Assembly: GCF_028285565.1 (NCBI RefSeq) | Contig: NZ_JANQOY010000033.1 | Span: forward strand, 1 to 64,000 | Direction: 5' to 3' | Origin: Acaryochloris sp. IP29b_bin.148 | Lineage (GTDB): Bacteria; Cyanobacteriota; Cyanobacteriia; Thermosynechococcales; Thermosynechococcaceae | Length of the DNA stretch: 64,000 nucleotides | Shown: piece by piece, positions 2,037-28,689 of the stretch | Position numbering within the stretch: the stretch's first letter is position 1 | How the letters are laid out: each line of letters opens with the position of its first letter | The notes under the pieces: generated by a model | What the model saw: only the letters and a program-made list of their open reading frames with translations | Databases searched by the model: none | Told to the model about the DNA's origin: nothing | Made by a program: the position numbers and the translations under genes

Positions 2037-3491
2037 GTGCGTGTTTTAATTTGGTTTCGCAATGACTTGCGGCTCCATGACCATGCCCCACTGCATCAGG
2101 CGGCGCGTTCCAAGGCTGATATTATTCCTTGCTACTGCTTTGATCCGCGTCAGTTTGGTCGAACGCCCTTTGACTTTCCCAAAACGGGACTGTTTCGAGC
2201 CCAGTTTTTGTTGGAGAGTGTGGCGGACTTGCGTCAATCTTTGCAAGCCAAGCAGAGCGATCTAATTCTGCGTCAGGGGCATCCTGAGGCGGTATTGCCA
2301 GAGCTAGCGCAAGCCTTGAAGGTGGATGCGGTGTATTTCAACCGAGAAGTCACCGCTGAGGAGATAAACGTTGAGAATCGTTTGCGCACTGCTTTAGCTG
2401 ATCTAGGTATTGAATGCTTGCGGTTTTGGAGCAGTACCCTCTATCACCCGGAACAACTGCCTTTCCCGATCCGAGAGCTGCCAGAAGTATTCACGAATTT
2501 TCGCAAGCAGGTGGAGAAATCTGCAAAGCCCAAAGCTCCTTTTCCAACACCCCAAACTTTATCAGCTTTACCAGATATTGATCCGGGTGAGTTGCCTCAA
2601 CTGGAAGACTGGGGATTATCAGCTCCTGAGCTTGACCCCAGAGCGATGATTCGATTCTCTGGGGGAGAAACGGCAGCATTGGCACGATTGCAAGACTATA
2701 TTTGGGAGCAGGATTGCCTTAAGCAGTATAAGGAAACCCGTAACGGCATGCTGCAGCCGAATGATTCCACGAAGTTTTCGCCTTGGTTAGCGTTGGGCTG
2801 TGTATCGCCGCGCTATATTCACCAGCAGGTGAAGACCTATGAACAGGAGCGGGTTAAAAATAATTCCACGTACTGGCTGATTTTTGAGCTGATTTGGCGC
2901 GATTATTTTCGGTTTATTTGTGCCAAGCATGGCAAGCGAGTCTTTCGGTTATCAGGGTTGCAGGGGTTGACATTACCCTGGCAGGACAACCGCGAAACCT
3001 TTGAGAAATGGCAAAGGGGCCAAACGGGATTTCCGCTGATTGATGCCAATATGCGGGAGTTGGCAGCGACGGGGTTTATGTCGAATCGGGGACGGCAGAA
3101 TGTGGCCAGCTTTTTAACCAAGAATTTGGGCCTGAATTGGCAGATGGGGGCAGAATGGTTTGAATCCTGTCTGATTGATTACGATGTTTGCAGTAATTGG
3201 GGCAATTGGAATTATGCGGCGGGGGTGGGAAATGATGCCCGTGGTTTCCGGTTTTTCAATATTGTCAAACAGGCAAAGGATTATGACCCCCAAGGAGATT
3301 ATGTGCGTCATTGGTTACCGGAGTTACAGGCTATACCAGGGGGACAGGTGCAGACGCCTTGGCAATTAACGGCGTTGGAGCAGGAGATGTTTGGGGTAAC
3401 AGTGGGCAAGGATTATCCAGAGCCGATGGTGGATTTGTGGCAGTCGGCGAAGGTGAATGAGCAGATTTATAACCGAGTGGTAAATCGGTAG
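2037..3491 (+). CDS. DASH-type cryptochrome / deoxyribodipyrimidine photolyase family
   Basis: 484 aa, GTG start; VLIWFRNDLRLHDH, GCVSPRYIH, ELIWRDYFRF, TGFPLIDANMRELAATGFMSNRGRQNVASFL, WGNWNYAAGVGNDARGFRFFNIVKQAKDYDPQGDYVRHWLPEL. Confidence 0.92.
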   Translation: MRVLIWFRNDLRLHDHAPLHQAARSKADIIPCYCFDPRQFGRTPFDFPKTGLFRAQFLLESVADLRQSLQAKQSDLILRQGHPEAVLPELAQALKVDAVYFNREVTAEEINVENRLRTALADLGIECLRFWSSTLYHPEQLPFPIRELPEVFTNFRKQVEKSAKPKAPFPTPQTLSALPDIDPGELPQLEDWGLSAPELDPRAMIRFSGGETAALARLQDYIWEQDCLKQYKETRNGMLQPNDSTKFSPWLALGCVSPRYIHQQVKTYEQERVKNNSTYWLIFELIWRDYFRFICAKHGKRVFRLSGLQGLTLPWQDNRETFEKWQRGQTGFPLIDANMRELAATGFMSNRGRQNVASFLTKNLGLNWQMGAEWFESCLIDYDVCSNWGNWNYAAGVGNDARGFRFFNIVKQAKDYDPQGDYVRHWLPELQAIPGGQVQTPWQLTALEQEMFGVTVGKDYPEPMVDLWQSAKVNEQIYNRVVNR

Positions 3492-3502
3492 ACGTAATCA
3501 TC

Positions 3503-3826
3503 ATGGCACTAACCAGAGATTTTAAAGAAACGATTTATGCCCGAGTACAATCGGAGCCTGAGTTTGCAACTGCTTTACTGGATGGGGCTGCATACTTGCT
3601 GCTCAATGGTGAACCAGAAACGGCTCGATTGATACTTAGGGATTTGGTTAATGCAACGGTTGGTTTTGAATAACTTGCCATTGCAGCCAAGAAGCCTAGC
3701 AAGAGCCTTCATCGCATGCTCTCTGCAAAAAGGAATCCAACAATGGATAGCTTAAATACAATATTCACGGTTCTACGGCAGACATTAAATGTAGATATTC
3801 AAGTTCATGCAATGCCTTGTTCTTGA
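3503..3826 (+). pseudogene. Antitoxin-like (addiction-module antidote/HTH) gene interrupted by in-frame TAA
   Basis: Single frame of 108 codons: MALTRDFKETIYARVQSEPEFATALLDGAAYLLLNGEPETARLILRDLVNATVGFE*LAIAAKKPSKSLHRMLSAKRNPTMDSLNTIFTVLRQTLNVDIQVHAMPCS*. TAA at 3671-3673; the same frame continues with a family-like C-terminal half. Confidence 0.65.
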
Positions 3827-3917
3827 ATCCATCTCGTTATGAGTACTATTCAAGGAATTTAACCACTCCTATGTGGATGAGGTTTGGGAGGCAGATGCCG
3901 AGTGACCCAAGACTTAC

Positions 3918-5501
3918 TTACAACTTTGCGAGTATTTTCTGTTTTACGGCTTGATACTTTTGCTTTAACAGCTTTTTACTATCTACCAATGTTCCTGTGG
4001 CCGTAGTTTGCTTGGCTGTTGATAAACAGTTTTGCAACAATTGACATTGACGCTGAGGAATTTTTATCGTGACAACATTGACGGGCTGACTGGGATTCGA
4101 TGAGTCAAACAACATCAATAAATAATATCCCCGCTCACTCAACAGTTTGGTGATATGTTGCCCACCGGCATCCTTTAAATCAATATAGCAAGGGAGCCAC
4201 CGCGGACCTTTTTGGTGATCAAACAAAGTCGTAATCCATAAAATGGTGGGATGGGGCGTAAAGGTACAGAGAAAATGGCTATGGCGGCTGCTGAGCGATC
4301 GCTCCTCAATTTCTTGTTTGTTTAACATCACCCATAAGCCAACGGCTTCTTGATCTGGTGATGAGATAGTTTGGGCAAAGACGATGTTGGCAATCGGTTT
4401 ATTCTTAGGCCAGGATGCCCGCCATGCGAGATCTTCTATTGACCAAAAGACGACTTGGGTTTGTTCGGCCATCGTCAGATTGGCCCGTTGAGCATGCTGT
4501 TGAGGTGTAATGTTTGTTAAATCAATGGATCCAGCATTGCTGCCTACAGGCGAGTTAGTATTTGCCTGAACATCGCTCTTTAAGGACTTGATAATTTCTG
4601 TGGCTGACTGGGGTCTTTGCTCAGGGTCTTTAGCCAAGCAACTCATGATTAAGTCTTCTAAGGCCGAGGGAATGTTGAGTGTCGGATCCACTTCCCGCAA
4701 GCGCTGAGGAGATAAATGTTGATGGGCTTCTGCCCAACTTTCAATCGTGTTGGTTTCAGCCATAATGGGAAAATACCCTGTCAAGGCTTCAAACATGGTA
4801 ATTCCCAAACTGTAGATATCAGAACGTGCATCAACCATAGCTCCCGAAAATTGTTCAGGGGAACCATAGGCAACGGTGCCGATAAAGGAATGCGATCGCA
4901 TCTCCTGGGCTTGGCTACTCAAAAAGTCTGCAATCCCAAAATCGAGGAGTTTGGCCAATTCACCCAAGCTGGCATCCTTGATCAAGAAAATATTACTAGG
5001 TTTGATATCTCGATGAATCACTTGGTGCAACTCGCCCTCTATCTGGATGCCTTGATGGGCGCATTGCAGACCTGCACAGACTTGAGTGATCAGATGAATA
5101 AAGCGCGTTAAGGGAATTTGTCCAGCTTCAATCAGATCATCCAGGGTTTGCCCCTGCATAAACTCCATCACATAGAAGGGAATTTGCTCTTCATGCAAGC
5201 CATAATCTAATACGCGCACAATATTCAAGCTTTGATGGCCTAAAAGTGCGCCAATTCGGGCTTCTCGAGCAAATCGAGAGGCAATCGCCTCATTCTGAAG
5301 GGTATGGGTGAGGAATTTAACGGCGACAGTGACATCCCCTAATAATCGATCTTTGGCTCGATAAACACTGCCCATGGCACCGCTACCCACCAACTCAACA
5401 AGTTCATAGCGATCGATTAAAAGTTGGCCAACCTGAATACCAGATTGATGTTTCTGCTTAGACGACTGATTAAACTTAAAGTACTTATTGAGCAGCTTCA
5501 C
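3918..5501 (-). CDS. Serine/threonine protein kinase
   Basis: Glycine loop GSGAMGSVYRA, VIHRDIKPSNIFLI, LLDFGIAD, GSPEQFSG, SDIYSLGITMFE. Confidence 0.92.
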   Translation of the reverse strand: MKLLNKYFKFNQSSKQKHQSGIQVGQLLIDRYELVELVGSGAMGSVYRAKDRLLGDVTVAVKFLTHTLQNEAIASRFAREARIGALLGHQSLNIVRVLDYGLHEEQIPFYVMEFMQGQTLDDLIEAGQIPLTRFIHLITQVCAGLQCAHQGIQIEGELHQVIHRDIKPSNIFLIKDASLGELAKLLDFGIADFLSSQAQEMRSHSFIGTVAYGSPEQFSGAMVDARSDIYSLGITMFEALTGYFPIMAETNTIESWAEAHQHLSPQRLREVDPTLNIPSALEDLIMSCLAKDPEQRPQSATEIIKSLKSDVQANTNSPVGSNAGSIDLTNITPQQHAQRANLTMAEQTQVVFWSIEDLAWRASWPKNKPIANIVFAQTISSPDQEAVGLWVMLNKQEIEERSLSSRHSHFLCTFTPHPTILWITTLFDHQKGPRWLPCYIDLKDAGGQHITKLLSERGYYLLMLFDSSNPSQPVNVVTIKIPQRQCQLLQNCLSTAKQTTATGTLVDSKKLLKQKYQAVKQKILAKL

Positions 5502-24698: not shown

Positions 24699-24769
24699 GC
24701 GGGTGTAGTTTAGTGGTAAAACCTTAGCCTTCCAAGCTAATGATGGGGGTTCGATTCCCCCCACCCGCT
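24699..24769 (+). tRNA. tRNA-Gly (anticodon UCC)
   Basis: GCGGGTG...CACCCGC acceptor stem, TTAGC-CTTCCAA-GCTAA anticodon arm, GGGGGTTCGATTCCCCC T arm. Confidence 0.95.
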
Positions 24770-24781
24770 TTATCAAGTAAT

Positions 24782-24839
24782 TCTGTACATTCCAGAATTA
24801 TTTGTCCGTTTCTGTACATTCCAGAATTATTTGTCCGTT
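24782..24839. repeat. 29-bp tandem duplication of the left transposon terminus
   Basis: TCTGTACATTCCAGAATTATTTGTCCGTT at 24782-24810 and again at 24811-24839. Confidence 0.95.
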
Positions 24840-25057
24840 TCCCAGAATTAGTGTCACAAAAACATAGAAATGTGACTGGTCGAAGTGGATGTATGCGAGA
24901 TCACTCGGCGAAGAATAAAACGCAGAACCCTTGCCCCTTAAAGCTTTCTCGATCTCTCAGACCCATCCAATCTCGATGCTAGTTTAATAATATTCCTAAC
25001 TTTAAGAAGACCAAATAGAATGTACTGGTTCGTTTTCCAGAATTAGTGTCGTGTAAC
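24840..25057. repeat. Left-end module copy 1 (subterminal region of the transposon)
   Basis: TCCCAGAATTAGTGTCAC...TCGGCGAAGAATAAAACGC...GATCTCTCAGACC...CCAATCTCGATGCTAGTT...GGTTCGTTTTCCAGAATTAGTGTCGTGTAAC; clearly homologous to 26638-26854. Confidence 0.9.
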
Positions 25058-25211
25058 ATTCATGAGGCTGGCGGCATGGCAGAGAAATCGAACCAAGTGT
25101 TGCACCGTAGGCAGAGTTACTGCCATCCGGCGGTCAAGCCGAACCGATTTGACTCCGAATACCACTCCTCCGAAAATCGGCGTGTGTTTAGTTTGTTGCA
25201 ATAAACCCGTA

Positions 25212-26480
25212 GTGTTTACATTTAATCCGAAACAGTTCCTGAGTCAACTTGGTAGCGTCACACTGCCAAGAGGCGCAGAGGAAGCCGTACTATGCGTCTT
25301 TAAGACCAGCCTTCAAAAGGAAGAAGGGGACTGTCTGCGTCCTTTTTGTGTTCTTACCGAGCGCAGTCACGATCAGAACAGCACAAAATGGATTGATCCA
25401 ATACGGGCTGAGACCGGTTTGCCAAAACTGAGCCAGCTTTCATGCTACGGAGTAAGAGCAATTCAGCTTGAAATGAGAGAGGACGAACTGACGATAGTTG
25501 GAATTACCGACGTCCCGCGAAGACAAATTCATGACAAGTTCATGGGGGTGATATGGGGTAGCTACCTAGAACTGGATGCAATGGGGATTGCAGATATTAG
25601 AGCTTGTCATGTGACACGGAAATCTATTCGTGAGACTGTCGAAACACCGATTGCGAGGTATCAGGGTGGTCGGTATTACACACGCAATTTTGAGGAAAAA
25701 ACAGAGAAGGTGTTTTCTCAGAATGGAGGGGAGGTTAATAGATTTCTCGTTGAGCTGGAACGTCTTCCAGGTCAGCCAGTTCCTACTTCTGCGGGGTGCT
25801 ATAACTACCCGTACTTCAGCGAGAATTTGCCGATCAGTATTTTCTCTGAAGATGTGTTTCATGGCCGACACGCCATGCATCAGGTATTTACTACAGCAGT
25901 AAGTCGATTGGCCAGGCGTGGTCGCGGAGGTGCAGCCATCGTTCTCGATGGTTCCGAGTCAATCGACAACGTAAAAACCATCAAGCCACCCGAATTGTTC
26001 GAGCATAGAGATCGAAACGGCACTGAGATGCCATGCACATCTGTCATTAACTGGACGGCATGGCAAGCCATTTGGCAGCACCTTGAGCAAGAGAGAAGAC
26101 CGATTGATCAGCTCCCACAAGAATCTAAGGATAGGAAAGATTATGTGAAATGGATCATTGAAAGACTCTCTTACCAACTAAATGAGTACGCAAGTATGCT
26201 GTGCGACATGATGATCCCTGATGGGGCTTTAGTTCTGGGAAAATTCCTCGAACCCGTAGCAATGGGAGTCAAACTGGAAGTTTCGGATGTTGGGGATTTG
26301 AGCCAAGAAGCGAATGACTATTTGGAAAAAAATATGAAGGGGATGCGTCATCGGTCAATGGCTTCCGCAATTAATTGTCTGCCGCGTTCACACGGTTTTG
26401 TCATCTCAAATGACGGACCAGTTACACTGTTTCGAGGAAGAGAGGTCGAGGGAAAAGCCGTTGAGGTTTTGAAGATGTAA
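25212..26480 (+). CDS. Putative diadenylate cyclase-like (DisA_N/DAC, DACNV-type) protein, transposon cargo
   Basis: ARRGRGGAAIVLDG, MIPDGALVLGKFLEPVAMGVKL (DGA motif), GMRHRSMASAINCLPRSHGFVISNDGPVTLFRGR (RHR motif). The ORF is open from 25062; GTG at 25212 (VFTFNPKQFLSQLG) is the preferred start. Confidence 0.72.
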   Translation: MFTFNPKQFLSQLGSVTLPRGAEEAVLCVFKTSLQKEEGDCLRPFCVLTERSHDQNSTKWIDPIRAETGLPKLSQLSCYGVRAIQLEMREDELTIVGITDVPRRQIHDKFMGVIWGSYLELDAMGIADIRACHVTRKSIRETVETPIARYQGGRYYTRNFEEKTEKVFSQNGGEVNRFLVELERLPGQPVPTSAGCYNYPYFSENLPISIFSEDVFHGRHAMHQVFTTAVSRLARRGRGGAAIVLDGSESIDNVKTIKPPELFEHRDRNGTEMPCTSVINWTAWQAIWQHLEQERRPIDQLPQESKDRKDYVKWIIERLSYQLNEYASMLCDMMIPDGALVLGKFLEPVAMGVKLEVSDVGDLSQEANDYLEKNMKGMRHRSMASAINCLPRSHGFVISNDGPVTLFRGREVEGKAVEVLKM

Positions 26481-26637
26481 ACATGCCCCCAACATCTGAC
26501 GTAGGTGGTGTTGGGCCACATAACTATGGTTATACGACTGCGAGGCTAAAGGAGCATTGTTTCTAACAAGCTGACCCATTAAACGACCGGCCTCATGCCC
26601 TGCAAGTGATTTGTCGTTTGCTAGGAGCAATGCACTT

Positions 26638-26854
26638 TTCCAGAATTAATGTCACAAAATTAGAAATGTGACTGGTGGCTAGGAGATGTCTAGTAGATCA
26701 TTCGGCGAAGAATAAAACGCGGAACCTTTTCCCCTCATAGCCTTCTGGATCTCTCAGACCTACCCAATCTCGATGCTAGTTAAATAATCTTCCTGACTCC
26801 AAGTGAATTAGATAGGATTTTGTGGTTCGTTTTCCAAAATTAGTATTGTGTAAC
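26638..26854. repeat. Left-end module copy 2 (internal)
   Basis: TTCCAGAATTAATGTCAC...TCGGCGAAGAATAAAACGC...GATCTCTCAGACC...CCAATCTCGATGCTAGTT...GGTTCGTTTTCCAAAATTAGTATTGTGTAAC, parallel to 24840-25057. Confidence 0.9.
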
Positions 26855-26938
26855 GTCTGAGGTAACCGATTGCAAACGGAAACCGCTCCATTCGTAACCG
26901 ACTGTTTTGAGTACTCCGGTTCACCGATTTGTTAGGCG
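26848..26938 (-). other. Candidate integron attC-like recombination site
   Basis: Minus strand: GCCTAAC (R'') AA ATCGGTGAACCG ... CGGTTACC TCAGAC GTTACAC. The arms GGTgAACCG / CGGTTACC pair with one extra base, as in attC sites. GCCTAA also supplies the ORF stop. Confidence 0.45.
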
Positions 26939-27432
26939 TCGGCGTTCCGATCATTGGCACGCTTGGCTTCCCCGGATACGTGCATCGAATCTACTGCGTT
27001 TGCGAGCACTTGTGCATAAGGACCGTTCAGTTCTTCGGCAACAAACCCCGACGCAAGGCACTGAAACGTGTAGTCCCACAGAAACGCGAAATAGTGCTTG
27101 ATTCTCTCCCAATACCTCGGATCATACTGATGATGGGCCGCGTTCGTTCTCTCTGCCTCTACCTTCCAAGGTGAGTTGTGAACAATACATAGCTGCCCCG
27201 GTGGGGCCTTTCCTGCCAGAGCTTGCGAGTCAAGTTCTGAGATATTGGGTGTCCCGTAGCAGACACTTTCAGGTTCTTGGAAACGCAGAACTACCCATCT
27301 ACCGGGGACCCTGGCAGGATAGACGAAAAACACAGCTAGGCCGTCCGATAAGGCGGTCCCTTCTGGTTGGCCATGGCCATATGCTATTGGCCACTCGATC
27401 GGTTCTACGGTCACTTGGTTGAAGTCGAACAC
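26932..27432 (-). CDS. Hypothetical protein, second cargo ORF of the transposon
   Basis: 166 aa, GTG start; MFDFNQVTVEPIEWPIAYGHGQPEGTALSDGLAVFFVYPARVPGRWVVLRFQEPES...; the stop lies in the GCCTAAC core. No family recognised. Confidence 0.55.
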   Translation of the reverse strand: MFDFNQVTVEPIEWPIAYGHGQPEGTALSDGLAVFFVYPARVPGRWVVLRFQEPESVCYGTPNISELDSQALAGKAPPGQLCIVHNSPWKVEAERTNAAHHQYDPRYWERIKHYFAFLWDYTFQCLASGFVAEELNGPYAQVLANAVDSMHVSGEAKRANDRNADA

Positions 27433-27996
27433 TTGTATATACGGTAGCCTGACTATAGTTATACGACTGACTGACGTATAAATCCTCTACATAGAATATT
27501 AGATTTCAAGTGTCGTGTAATGCTCTGATTTGGATAGAAAAGCGACACATTGGTAGTTATCACTTATCTATTAGCTCACTAGAAATATCCATCTCAAGAA
27601 CAACAGTGCCATCAATAAAATTTGTAGATTTGGCACTGAAGACAAGAAATGACACCTAATTCTGGAAAGTCCTATAAAGAATTGACATTTAATTATGAAA
27701 AGATAATCAGTTGAGAAAAAAACTAAATTTCTCCGAAGTCCTTATCTGATATATTCCTCAAAGATTTAAAGCTGTGACATTAATTCCAGAAAAGTGTCAT
27801 TTAATTCTGGAATGTACAAATTCTGGCTCGAATCTTTTGGTTTAACTTGTAAAGGACTGACTTTTCCCAGCCACATCATCAGTAAGGTCAAGGGTGTAGC
27901 GATATCATCCGTCTTAATGGATATGGCAGTCTGGGCTGCTACTGCGTAGCAAAGATTTACATCAGGGATAGCTGACTTCAGGTCTTCAAGATTGGC

Positions 27997-28689
27997 TTAC
28001 TCAGATTTTGTTTTATTTCTGTAAACAATATCGAAATAGCTTCCTACTTTTGCCCGGCTAGCAAACTTATCACGAGCGTATTCAGAGTATCCATTCTCCA
28101 TCATAAACGCGCTGATATCTGAGAGCTGACAGCAGCCTCCATAAGACTCAAAATCTGGCACTTCTAATTTGATAAATTCAAAATGCTTTAAAACAGGAAG
28201 ACTACCCTGTAAGACCAGCATCTCTGATCCTTGCGTGTCCATAATGAGCGCTTGGTAACGCGTTACATCTATTTGTTCTTTTTTGAGAAGTGAGTCCAAA
28301 GTGATGCTAGCGAGAGAAAGAGTAGTGGTGAACTCAATATTAGGCCAAATCTCTTTATGCCCTTTCAAATCTAGAATGGACGAGGATTGCCCATTATTAT
28401 TGGAGATAAAAAAGTCATATTTCTGATGGTCAACTTCTGTCACTAGATATTGAAATGCGCGCTGTTCTTTATAGCCGCTCAAGTTGGCTTGGAGTTGAGT
28501 AAAAACCTCAGGGATGGGCTCAATCCAAATAACATCTAAATCGTACTTTTTATAGAGATTCCGTTCTTGTCCAACATTAGCGCCAATATGAATCACCCCA
28601 GTAACCTGTTGTAGGAATTGGTTTGGGTCTTCTGCTAATGCTTTCCTAATGCGATATAAAAGTATTTTGCTTTTAGCAACAATCATCAT
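27997..28689 (-). CDS. FkbM family methyltransferase
   Basis: GVIHIGANVGQERNLYKKYDLDVIWIEPIPEVFTQL..., YQALIMDTQGSEMLVLQGS, FIKLEVPDFESYGGC. Confidence 0.85.
   Translation of the reverse strand: MMIVAKSKILLYRIRKALAEDPNQFLQQVTGVIHIGANVGQERNLYKKYDLDVIWIEPIPEVFTQLQANLSGYKEQRAFQYLVTEVDHQKYDFFISNNNGQSSSILDLKGHKEIWPNIEFTTTLSLASITLDSLLKKEQIDVTRYQALIMDTQGSEMLVLQGSLPVLKHFEFIKLEVPDFESYGGCCQLSDISAFMMENGYSEYARDKFASRAKVGSYFDIVYRNKTKSE

Follow-up and report, generated by a model that had tools for sequence, protein, structure and literature searches.

Proteins that combine a diadenylate cyclase (DAC) domain with an N-terminal DACNV domain carry one of the DACNx names, which were reportedly coined by Galperin in 2023 (All DACs in a row). 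A limited literature search found neither a paper on DACNV nor one joining a diadenylate cyclase with Tn7-like elements, and a single paper in which diadenylate cyclase and Cap15 occur together. Links between DACs and CBASS are credited to Galperin 2023 in PMC13092281. The experimental tie of DACs to phage defence is recent only and comes from DS-2 (DefensePredictor; PMC13092281), a CBASS in which the DAC and its catalytic residues are needed for defence. In Panoptes, as described in PMC12657218 and PMC12657230, 2′,3′-c-di-AMP holds a Cap15-family effector off. As to the transposons, PMC9938897 gives a common plan for type V-K CASTs, with the left end behind a tRNA, an anchor spacer of ~17 nt, the PAM GTN and 46–82 nt between the PAM and the left end, and defence cargo is described as frequent in Tn7-like and V-K elements (PMC8649781 and PMC9938897).

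The window, which is the whole 64,000-nt stretch of Acaryochloris DNA analysed here, carries a DAC-like gene within a 3,035-bp unit (24784–27818; Table 1) that begins 14 bp after tRNA-Gly(TCC) and is flanked by a 5-bp AATTC duplication. Inward-facing TGTACATTCCAGAATTA tips are found at 24784 and 27818, with AATTC outside each, and CAGAATTAnTGTC-like sites, which we infer to be TnsB binding sites, are repeated in both ends (in the left end further CAGAATTAnTGTC sites lie near 24842 and 25037). In the congener G001 the V-K CAST has an anchor spacer that matches, over 17 nt, the tRNA stretch AAACCTTAGCCTTCCAA, which follows a PAM-like GTA at 24716–24718, and the distance from the GTA to the left end is 65 nt in the window and 53 nt in G001. 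V-K CASTs (cas12k, tniQ, tnsC) occupy the same tRNA-Gly in two of six congeneric genomes, with orthologous flanks (79% identity over 284 and 93% over 132 bases). The one in G001 has a TniB-type tnsC, a V-K TniQ and a CRISPR array in which the repeat is matched five times, as well as a spacer that stands apart and is 17/17 identical to the tRNA; the one in G004 has a V-K Cas12k and TnsB, encoded on separate contigs that both contain the first 29 residues of tnsC. The right end of the window element is 76% identical over ~240 bp to the right ends in G004 and G001, the G004 contig with the homologous right end also bears an orthologous aspS, and left ends related to that of the window are present in four of the six other genomes of the genus. 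Among the ORFs of the element itself we found no transposase, cas12k, tnsB, tnsC or tniQ, and no repeat-like sequence of a CRISPR array; Cas12k and TnsC had no match in the genome assembly of the window either (87% complete). Judged by its sequence, the unit is a cargo-only type V-K CAST derivative, a derivative and not a CAST since it has neither the core genes nor an array. The first-pass annotation, which had seen transposon cargo next to a tRNA, is thereby both upheld and sharpened, as the tRNA is a CAST attachment site.

Table 1. Features of the element and of related loci (positions refer to the window unless a contig handle is given)
Feature	Position	Strand	Basis or remark
tRNA-Gly(TCC), attachment target	24699..24769	+	ARAGORN
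Target-site duplication AATTC, left copy	24779..24783	.	Sequence
Left end, TGTACATTCCAGAATTATTTGTC tip, sub-terminal region	24784..25057	+	Sequence
Divergent DACNV-like diadenylate cyclase ORF (predicted)	25212..26480	+	422 aa from GTG; DAC domain ~residues 211-411
Second, internal left-end copy without TGTACA tip	26636..26854	+	81% identity to first copy
166-aa ORF, function unassigned	26932..27432	-	85% identical protein beside homologous right end, congener G001
Right end, inverted CCAGAATTAnnTGTC-type sites, TGTACA tip	27642..27818	-	76% identical right ends G004:C44, G001:C32
Target-site duplication AATTC, right copy	27819..27823	.	Sequence
DAC-Cap15 locus, G469	L085:4991-8029		One strand, order Cap15, CD-NTase, DAC
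DAC-Cap15 locus, G555	L110:1921-4103		DAC and Cap15 convergent; no CD-NTase found on 9.2-kb contig
DAC-Cap15 locus, G602	L111:169-2315		DAC and Cap15 convergent; no CD-NTase found; contig ends 168 bp before Cap15
Separate DAC-like family, member	L063:1207-2451		
Separate DAC-like family, member	L064:718-2007		
Separate DAC-like family, member	L065:784-2004		
Separate DAC-like family, member	L066:700-2016		
Separate DAC-like family, member	L067:1186-2418		
Separate DAC-like family, member	L068:1156-2499		

Several observations concern the CASTs of the congeners and the surroundings of the element. The cas12k of G001 (L033, G001:C102) reads as two ORFs (2525–3889 and 3965–4582), so this CAST may be inactive, and an open 701-codon cas12k frame is present in L041 of G004. 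Upstream of a V-K tnsB, on the same G004 contig, lie Type I restriction-modification genes (L050:1116–5518, G004:C117), which are defence cargo typical of CASTs. Directly beside the right end of the window element there is a gene for an FkbM-type methyltransferase (27997–28689).

The cargo ORF in the form first noted is real and its reading frame is open. The start codon is uncertain, as the same frame read from an ATG at 25062 gives a protein of 472 residues (25062..26480, +); the GTG is likely to be right because the starts of the relatives align near it. The motifs read as previously quoted, with an RGRGGAAIVLD strand, MIPDGALVLGKFLEPVAMGVKL containing D337 and GMRHRSMASAINCLPRSHGFVISNDGPVTLF containing the RHR motif at 379–381, and the GG of the first strand (239–240), D337, G338 and R379-H380-R381 are invariant in a six-row alignment. 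The aspartate of the DGA motif is presumably the residue altered in the Thermotoga DisA D75N structure (4yxm). A profile built from six DACNV-DAC sequences, the window protein not among them, gives 48.3 bits for residues 211–422 (47.7 bits for the whole protein and 1.8 for residues 1–210), the best of 2000 shuffled controls reaching 4.1 bits, and hhalign matches the protein to DACNV-DAC with 97.1% probability over residues 215–409. Since the full-length AF2 model, for which three sequences were used, was of low quality (mean pLDDT 43), the fold search was done with a model of the C-terminal domain only (residues 216–422, likewise from three sequences), which is of moderate quality (pLDDT 67, pTM 0.66). 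Among the best 50 of its 208 Foldseek matches at E≤10 all were DACs, and VIA-align returned 40 rows at Z 10.4–11.9, the best unrelated chain having 6.9. The titles of these top 40 name CdaA, DacM, DacA, CdaM, DisA or diadenylate cyclase, with two exceptions: 2fb5 is a membrane protein from structural genomics, and 3c1y is a DNA damage sensor that we take to be DisA.

Family models were silent on the window protein: at E≤1 it matched nothing in Pfam, DAC (PF02457) and DACNV (PF21751) included, and nothing in PADLOC, and NCBIfam had no match for it at E≤5. PF02457 stays below its cut-off in all six DACNV relatives scanned too, and so this model appears to be insensitive for the group. A phmmer search of the PDB sequences with the window protein gave a single match (E 1.5), which was unrelated and was set aside; a six-row profile including the window protein gave 15 matches at E≤1 (best E 0.018), seven of them named diadenylate cyclase or DisA, one being 2fb5 (here titled 'hypothetical membrane protein') and seven unrelated. 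It is very likely that the window protein is, structurally, a DAC. The DGA and RHR motifs in DAC order, from which the domain had been proposed in the first place, thus stand at the level of fold and motif, and the predicted structure has the DAC fold, the lack of which had been named beforehand as the outcome that would count against the proposal. Cyclase activity, predicted from the motifs and the domain model, is also probable.

The N-terminal half had been likened to DACNV-type sensor regions, and here the picture is less sharp. An N-terminal profile gives 11.5 bits for residues 1–150, the best of 5000 shuffles reaching 10.0, and in a second test of this kind the N-terminal part also came first narrowly (6.7 bits, best of 2000 shuffles 4.8). 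A 16-sequence profile gives 65.9 bits over residues 26–410, collinear with DACNV from residue 26, with residues 26–140 aligned to DACNV in the proper order. The nearest relatives in the tree, L061 and L081, have Pfam DACNV over its cut-off (34.8 and 75.4 bits). Against this, hhalign of the N-terminus with DACNV gives 1.8% only and Pfam DACNV is silent on the window protein itself. The narrow lead over shuffles and the collinearity stand in favour of the likeness, and together the data are suggestive only of a very divergent DACNV domain.

The first lead to relatives was a plasmid protein of Hymenobacter with a DACNV annotation (E 0.07), and a search of 386 cyanobacterial genomes with the window protein gave, apart from itself, a single relative (E 4.4e-4); in both, Pfam DACNV exceeds its cut-off and Pfam DAC is matched below threshold. 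Genome contigs scanned with the window protein alone gave no relative and those scanned with an alignment gave two, and none was found in two scans of viral contigs or in phage records. When 388 genomes of the class were searched with a profile, 29 had a match; only the ten at ≥59 bits, the genome of the window included, were counted as DACNV-type, the other 19 (19 to 34 bits) being left out. In a FastTree phylogeny (191 columns, 17 sequences; deep nodes weak) the window protein clusters with L061 (support 0.887) and L081 (0.904), near which we saw no defence gene, and not with the Cap15-linked L059 and L060. A weak DAC match elsewhere in the genome of the window (C202, 12.8 bits) was dropped, as it has an internal stop and adjoins an unrelated P-loop-like ORF. 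On the Hymenobacter monticola plasmid (L003:1–3366) the DACNV gene has, 68 bp upstream, a gene encoding a patatin-like phospholipase of ~750 aa; we make no claim for it as a CapV-type partner, since at that length it does not look like CapV and the patatin is missing from this place in a second Hymenobacter plasmid. The searches also uncovered a separate cyanobacterial family of DAC-like proteins (407–448 aa; Table 1), in which DGA is kept, GTRHTS replaces GTRHRS and is followed by SSDGPVTVFSDG or similar, and the tail is cysteine-rich; it is possibly an altered or inactive cyclase.

What would a DAC do on such a unit? One clue comes from Cap15 (PF18153), a CBASS effector present in nine of the 388 genomes. 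A DACNV-type DAC adjoins Cap15 in three of the nine cyanobacterial Cap15 loci, two of these three without a detectable CD-NTase, and the Cap15 neighbours match PF18153 far over its cut-off. The three shared genomes correspond to a hypergeometric P of ~0.001, kinship ignored and on the assumption, from equal numbers and handles, that the same 388 genomes lay behind the DAC and the Cap15 searches. The other six Cap15 loci have no DACNV-type DAC; a CD-NTase is found near Cap15 in G036, G384 and G542 and none in the stretch read in G449, G464 and G539 (the G539 contig ends ~480 bp upstream). The Cap15 neighbours support a putative link to defence at the level of the family, which does not yet extend to the window gene. 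The first-pass annotation had proposed a survey of the genomic neighbours for effectors, and no effector, nuclease or CD-NTase was recognised within the 3-kb element, which thus does not show the CD-NTase and effector beside the gene by which a CBASS is defined; Cap15 is likewise missing from the genome assembly of the window (87% complete). The earlier phrase 'defence or signalling cargo' is plausible for the family, on the strength of the three Cap15 loci, but the element itself has no effector to go with it.

Our preferred reading, to which we give a probability of about 0.6, is that the gene is a DAC carried as cargo of a CAST derivative and making c-di-AMP for a defence or stress response with effectors encoded elsewhere. 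Cas12k/TnsB machinery, of the kind not found in the assembly, would have placed the element behind the tRNA, either by mobilisation in trans or with later loss of the core genes. The main cargo would be the divergent DACNV-like DAC, whose C-terminal domain would form a dimer and make c-di-AMP from two ATP molecules, and whose N-terminal DACNV-like region may gate the cyclase by sensing. The signal would most likely act as an accessory to effectors in trans, in a defence or stress response under nucleotide control. This last step, the weakest of the chain, is proposed because DACNV relatives are found beside Cap15, and by this analogy a defence role for the window gene itself is a tentative suggestion, somewhat short of an even chance.

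The gene may instead be signalling cargo without any defence role, which would feed the host pool of c-di-AMP (osmotic, potassium and carbon regulation) beside the enzyme of the host. The host genome encodes a canonical CdaA-type DAC (L011) over the Pfam cut-off, so that c-di-AMP receptors are to be expected, and most of the DACNV-type DACs found have other neighbours (an ABC transporter, a fatty-acid desaturase) and none linked to defence. However, that the gene sits on a mobile CAST-type element and that some relatives adjoin Cap15 speaks for a role in conflict, and we consider this alternative rather unlikely.

We judge similarly the chance that the gene is an orphan remnant, left when a DAC-effector module or a whole CAST lost its partner, with the DAC under no selection. 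The element is composite: besides the internal left end, a 29-bp unit at the left tip is duplicated exactly in tandem (24781–24809 and 24810–24838), which creates two TGTACA starts. An 891-bp match at 85% identity links its right half, the 166-aa gene included, to G001:C32, whose left cargo is not the same and consists of an R2K ATP-grasp protein and a further ORF, and so the elements of the genus exchange modules. The idea that the 166-aa ORF is a conserved partner of the DAC was rejected, as its close homologue in G001 accompanies other cargo and no relative of the DAC was found in G001. The DAC is a single-copy gene on a long branch of the tree, has no orthologue in the six congeners and may be decaying. 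It has nevertheless kept an open frame of 422 residues with all the catalytic motifs. Finally, a DAC-shaped protein acting as a nucleotide-binding receptor or regulator and not as a cyclase is improbable: the domain is only ~16–24% identical to its relatives, the DGA–RHR spacing is 42 residues as against 31 in host CdaA and SNDG stands where CdaA has SEE, but D337 and R379-H380-R381 are kept and, since SxD occupies the SEE position in the DACNV relatives too, the lack of the glutamate characterises the group rather than the window protein alone.

A bolder extension of the preferred cargo-DAC reading, which we regard as a long shot, is a cyanobacterial DAC-Cap15 module without CD-NTase, the cyclase half of which would be spread as RNA-targeted cargo by V-K CAST derivatives, the window element included, and would work with effectors in trans. 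In such a module the nucleotide made by a DACNV-type DAC would control a Cap15-family membrane effector, either by switching it on upon infection or by a Panoptes-like hold that lasts until a phage sponge removes the nucleotide.

In comparison with known systems, the window protein shares with the structures of DisA and CdaA the common DAC fold and the catalytic DGA and RHR motifs, whereas the accessory domains differ, SEE is absent and the spacing is longer than in host CdaA. It resembles the DACNV-DAC proteins (PF21751 and PF02457), such as those of Hymenobacter monticola (WP_243520307) and Cyanobacteria bacterium RYN_339, in length, domain order and the DGA, GxRHR and SxDG motifs, and differs from them in matching neither Pfam model, in a barely recognisable N-terminus and in a domain identity of ~20%. 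The element resembles a V-K CAST in its tRNA-Gly site, PAM-like GTA, spacing within the range, TGTACA tips, repeated sites and homologous right ends, and departs from it in having two left ends and neither core genes nor an array, which suggests that V-K CAST ends may move or leave small cargo-only units in nature. A CAST-borne DAC with a defence or signalling role is plausible, if unproven. DS-2 can be likened to it by the description in its source, in that a DAC there belongs to a defence system based on cyclic dinucleotides, although the DS-2 DAC adjoins phospholipase and cGAS genes, both absent from the window element. Panoptes (OptS/mCpol and OptE/2TMbeta), again as its sources describe it, employs the Cas10-related mCpol and not a DAC, and the window element has no effector; the analogy is with the DAC-Cap15 pairs of the relatives, where a putative nucleotide maker also lies beside a Cap15-family effector. 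Given the precedents of DS-2 and Panoptes, activation and restraint are both testable in these pairs, which, together with a partnerless DAC on a derivative of an RNA-targeted transposon, offer two-gene loci for asking whether Cap15 effectors are driven or held back by DACs.
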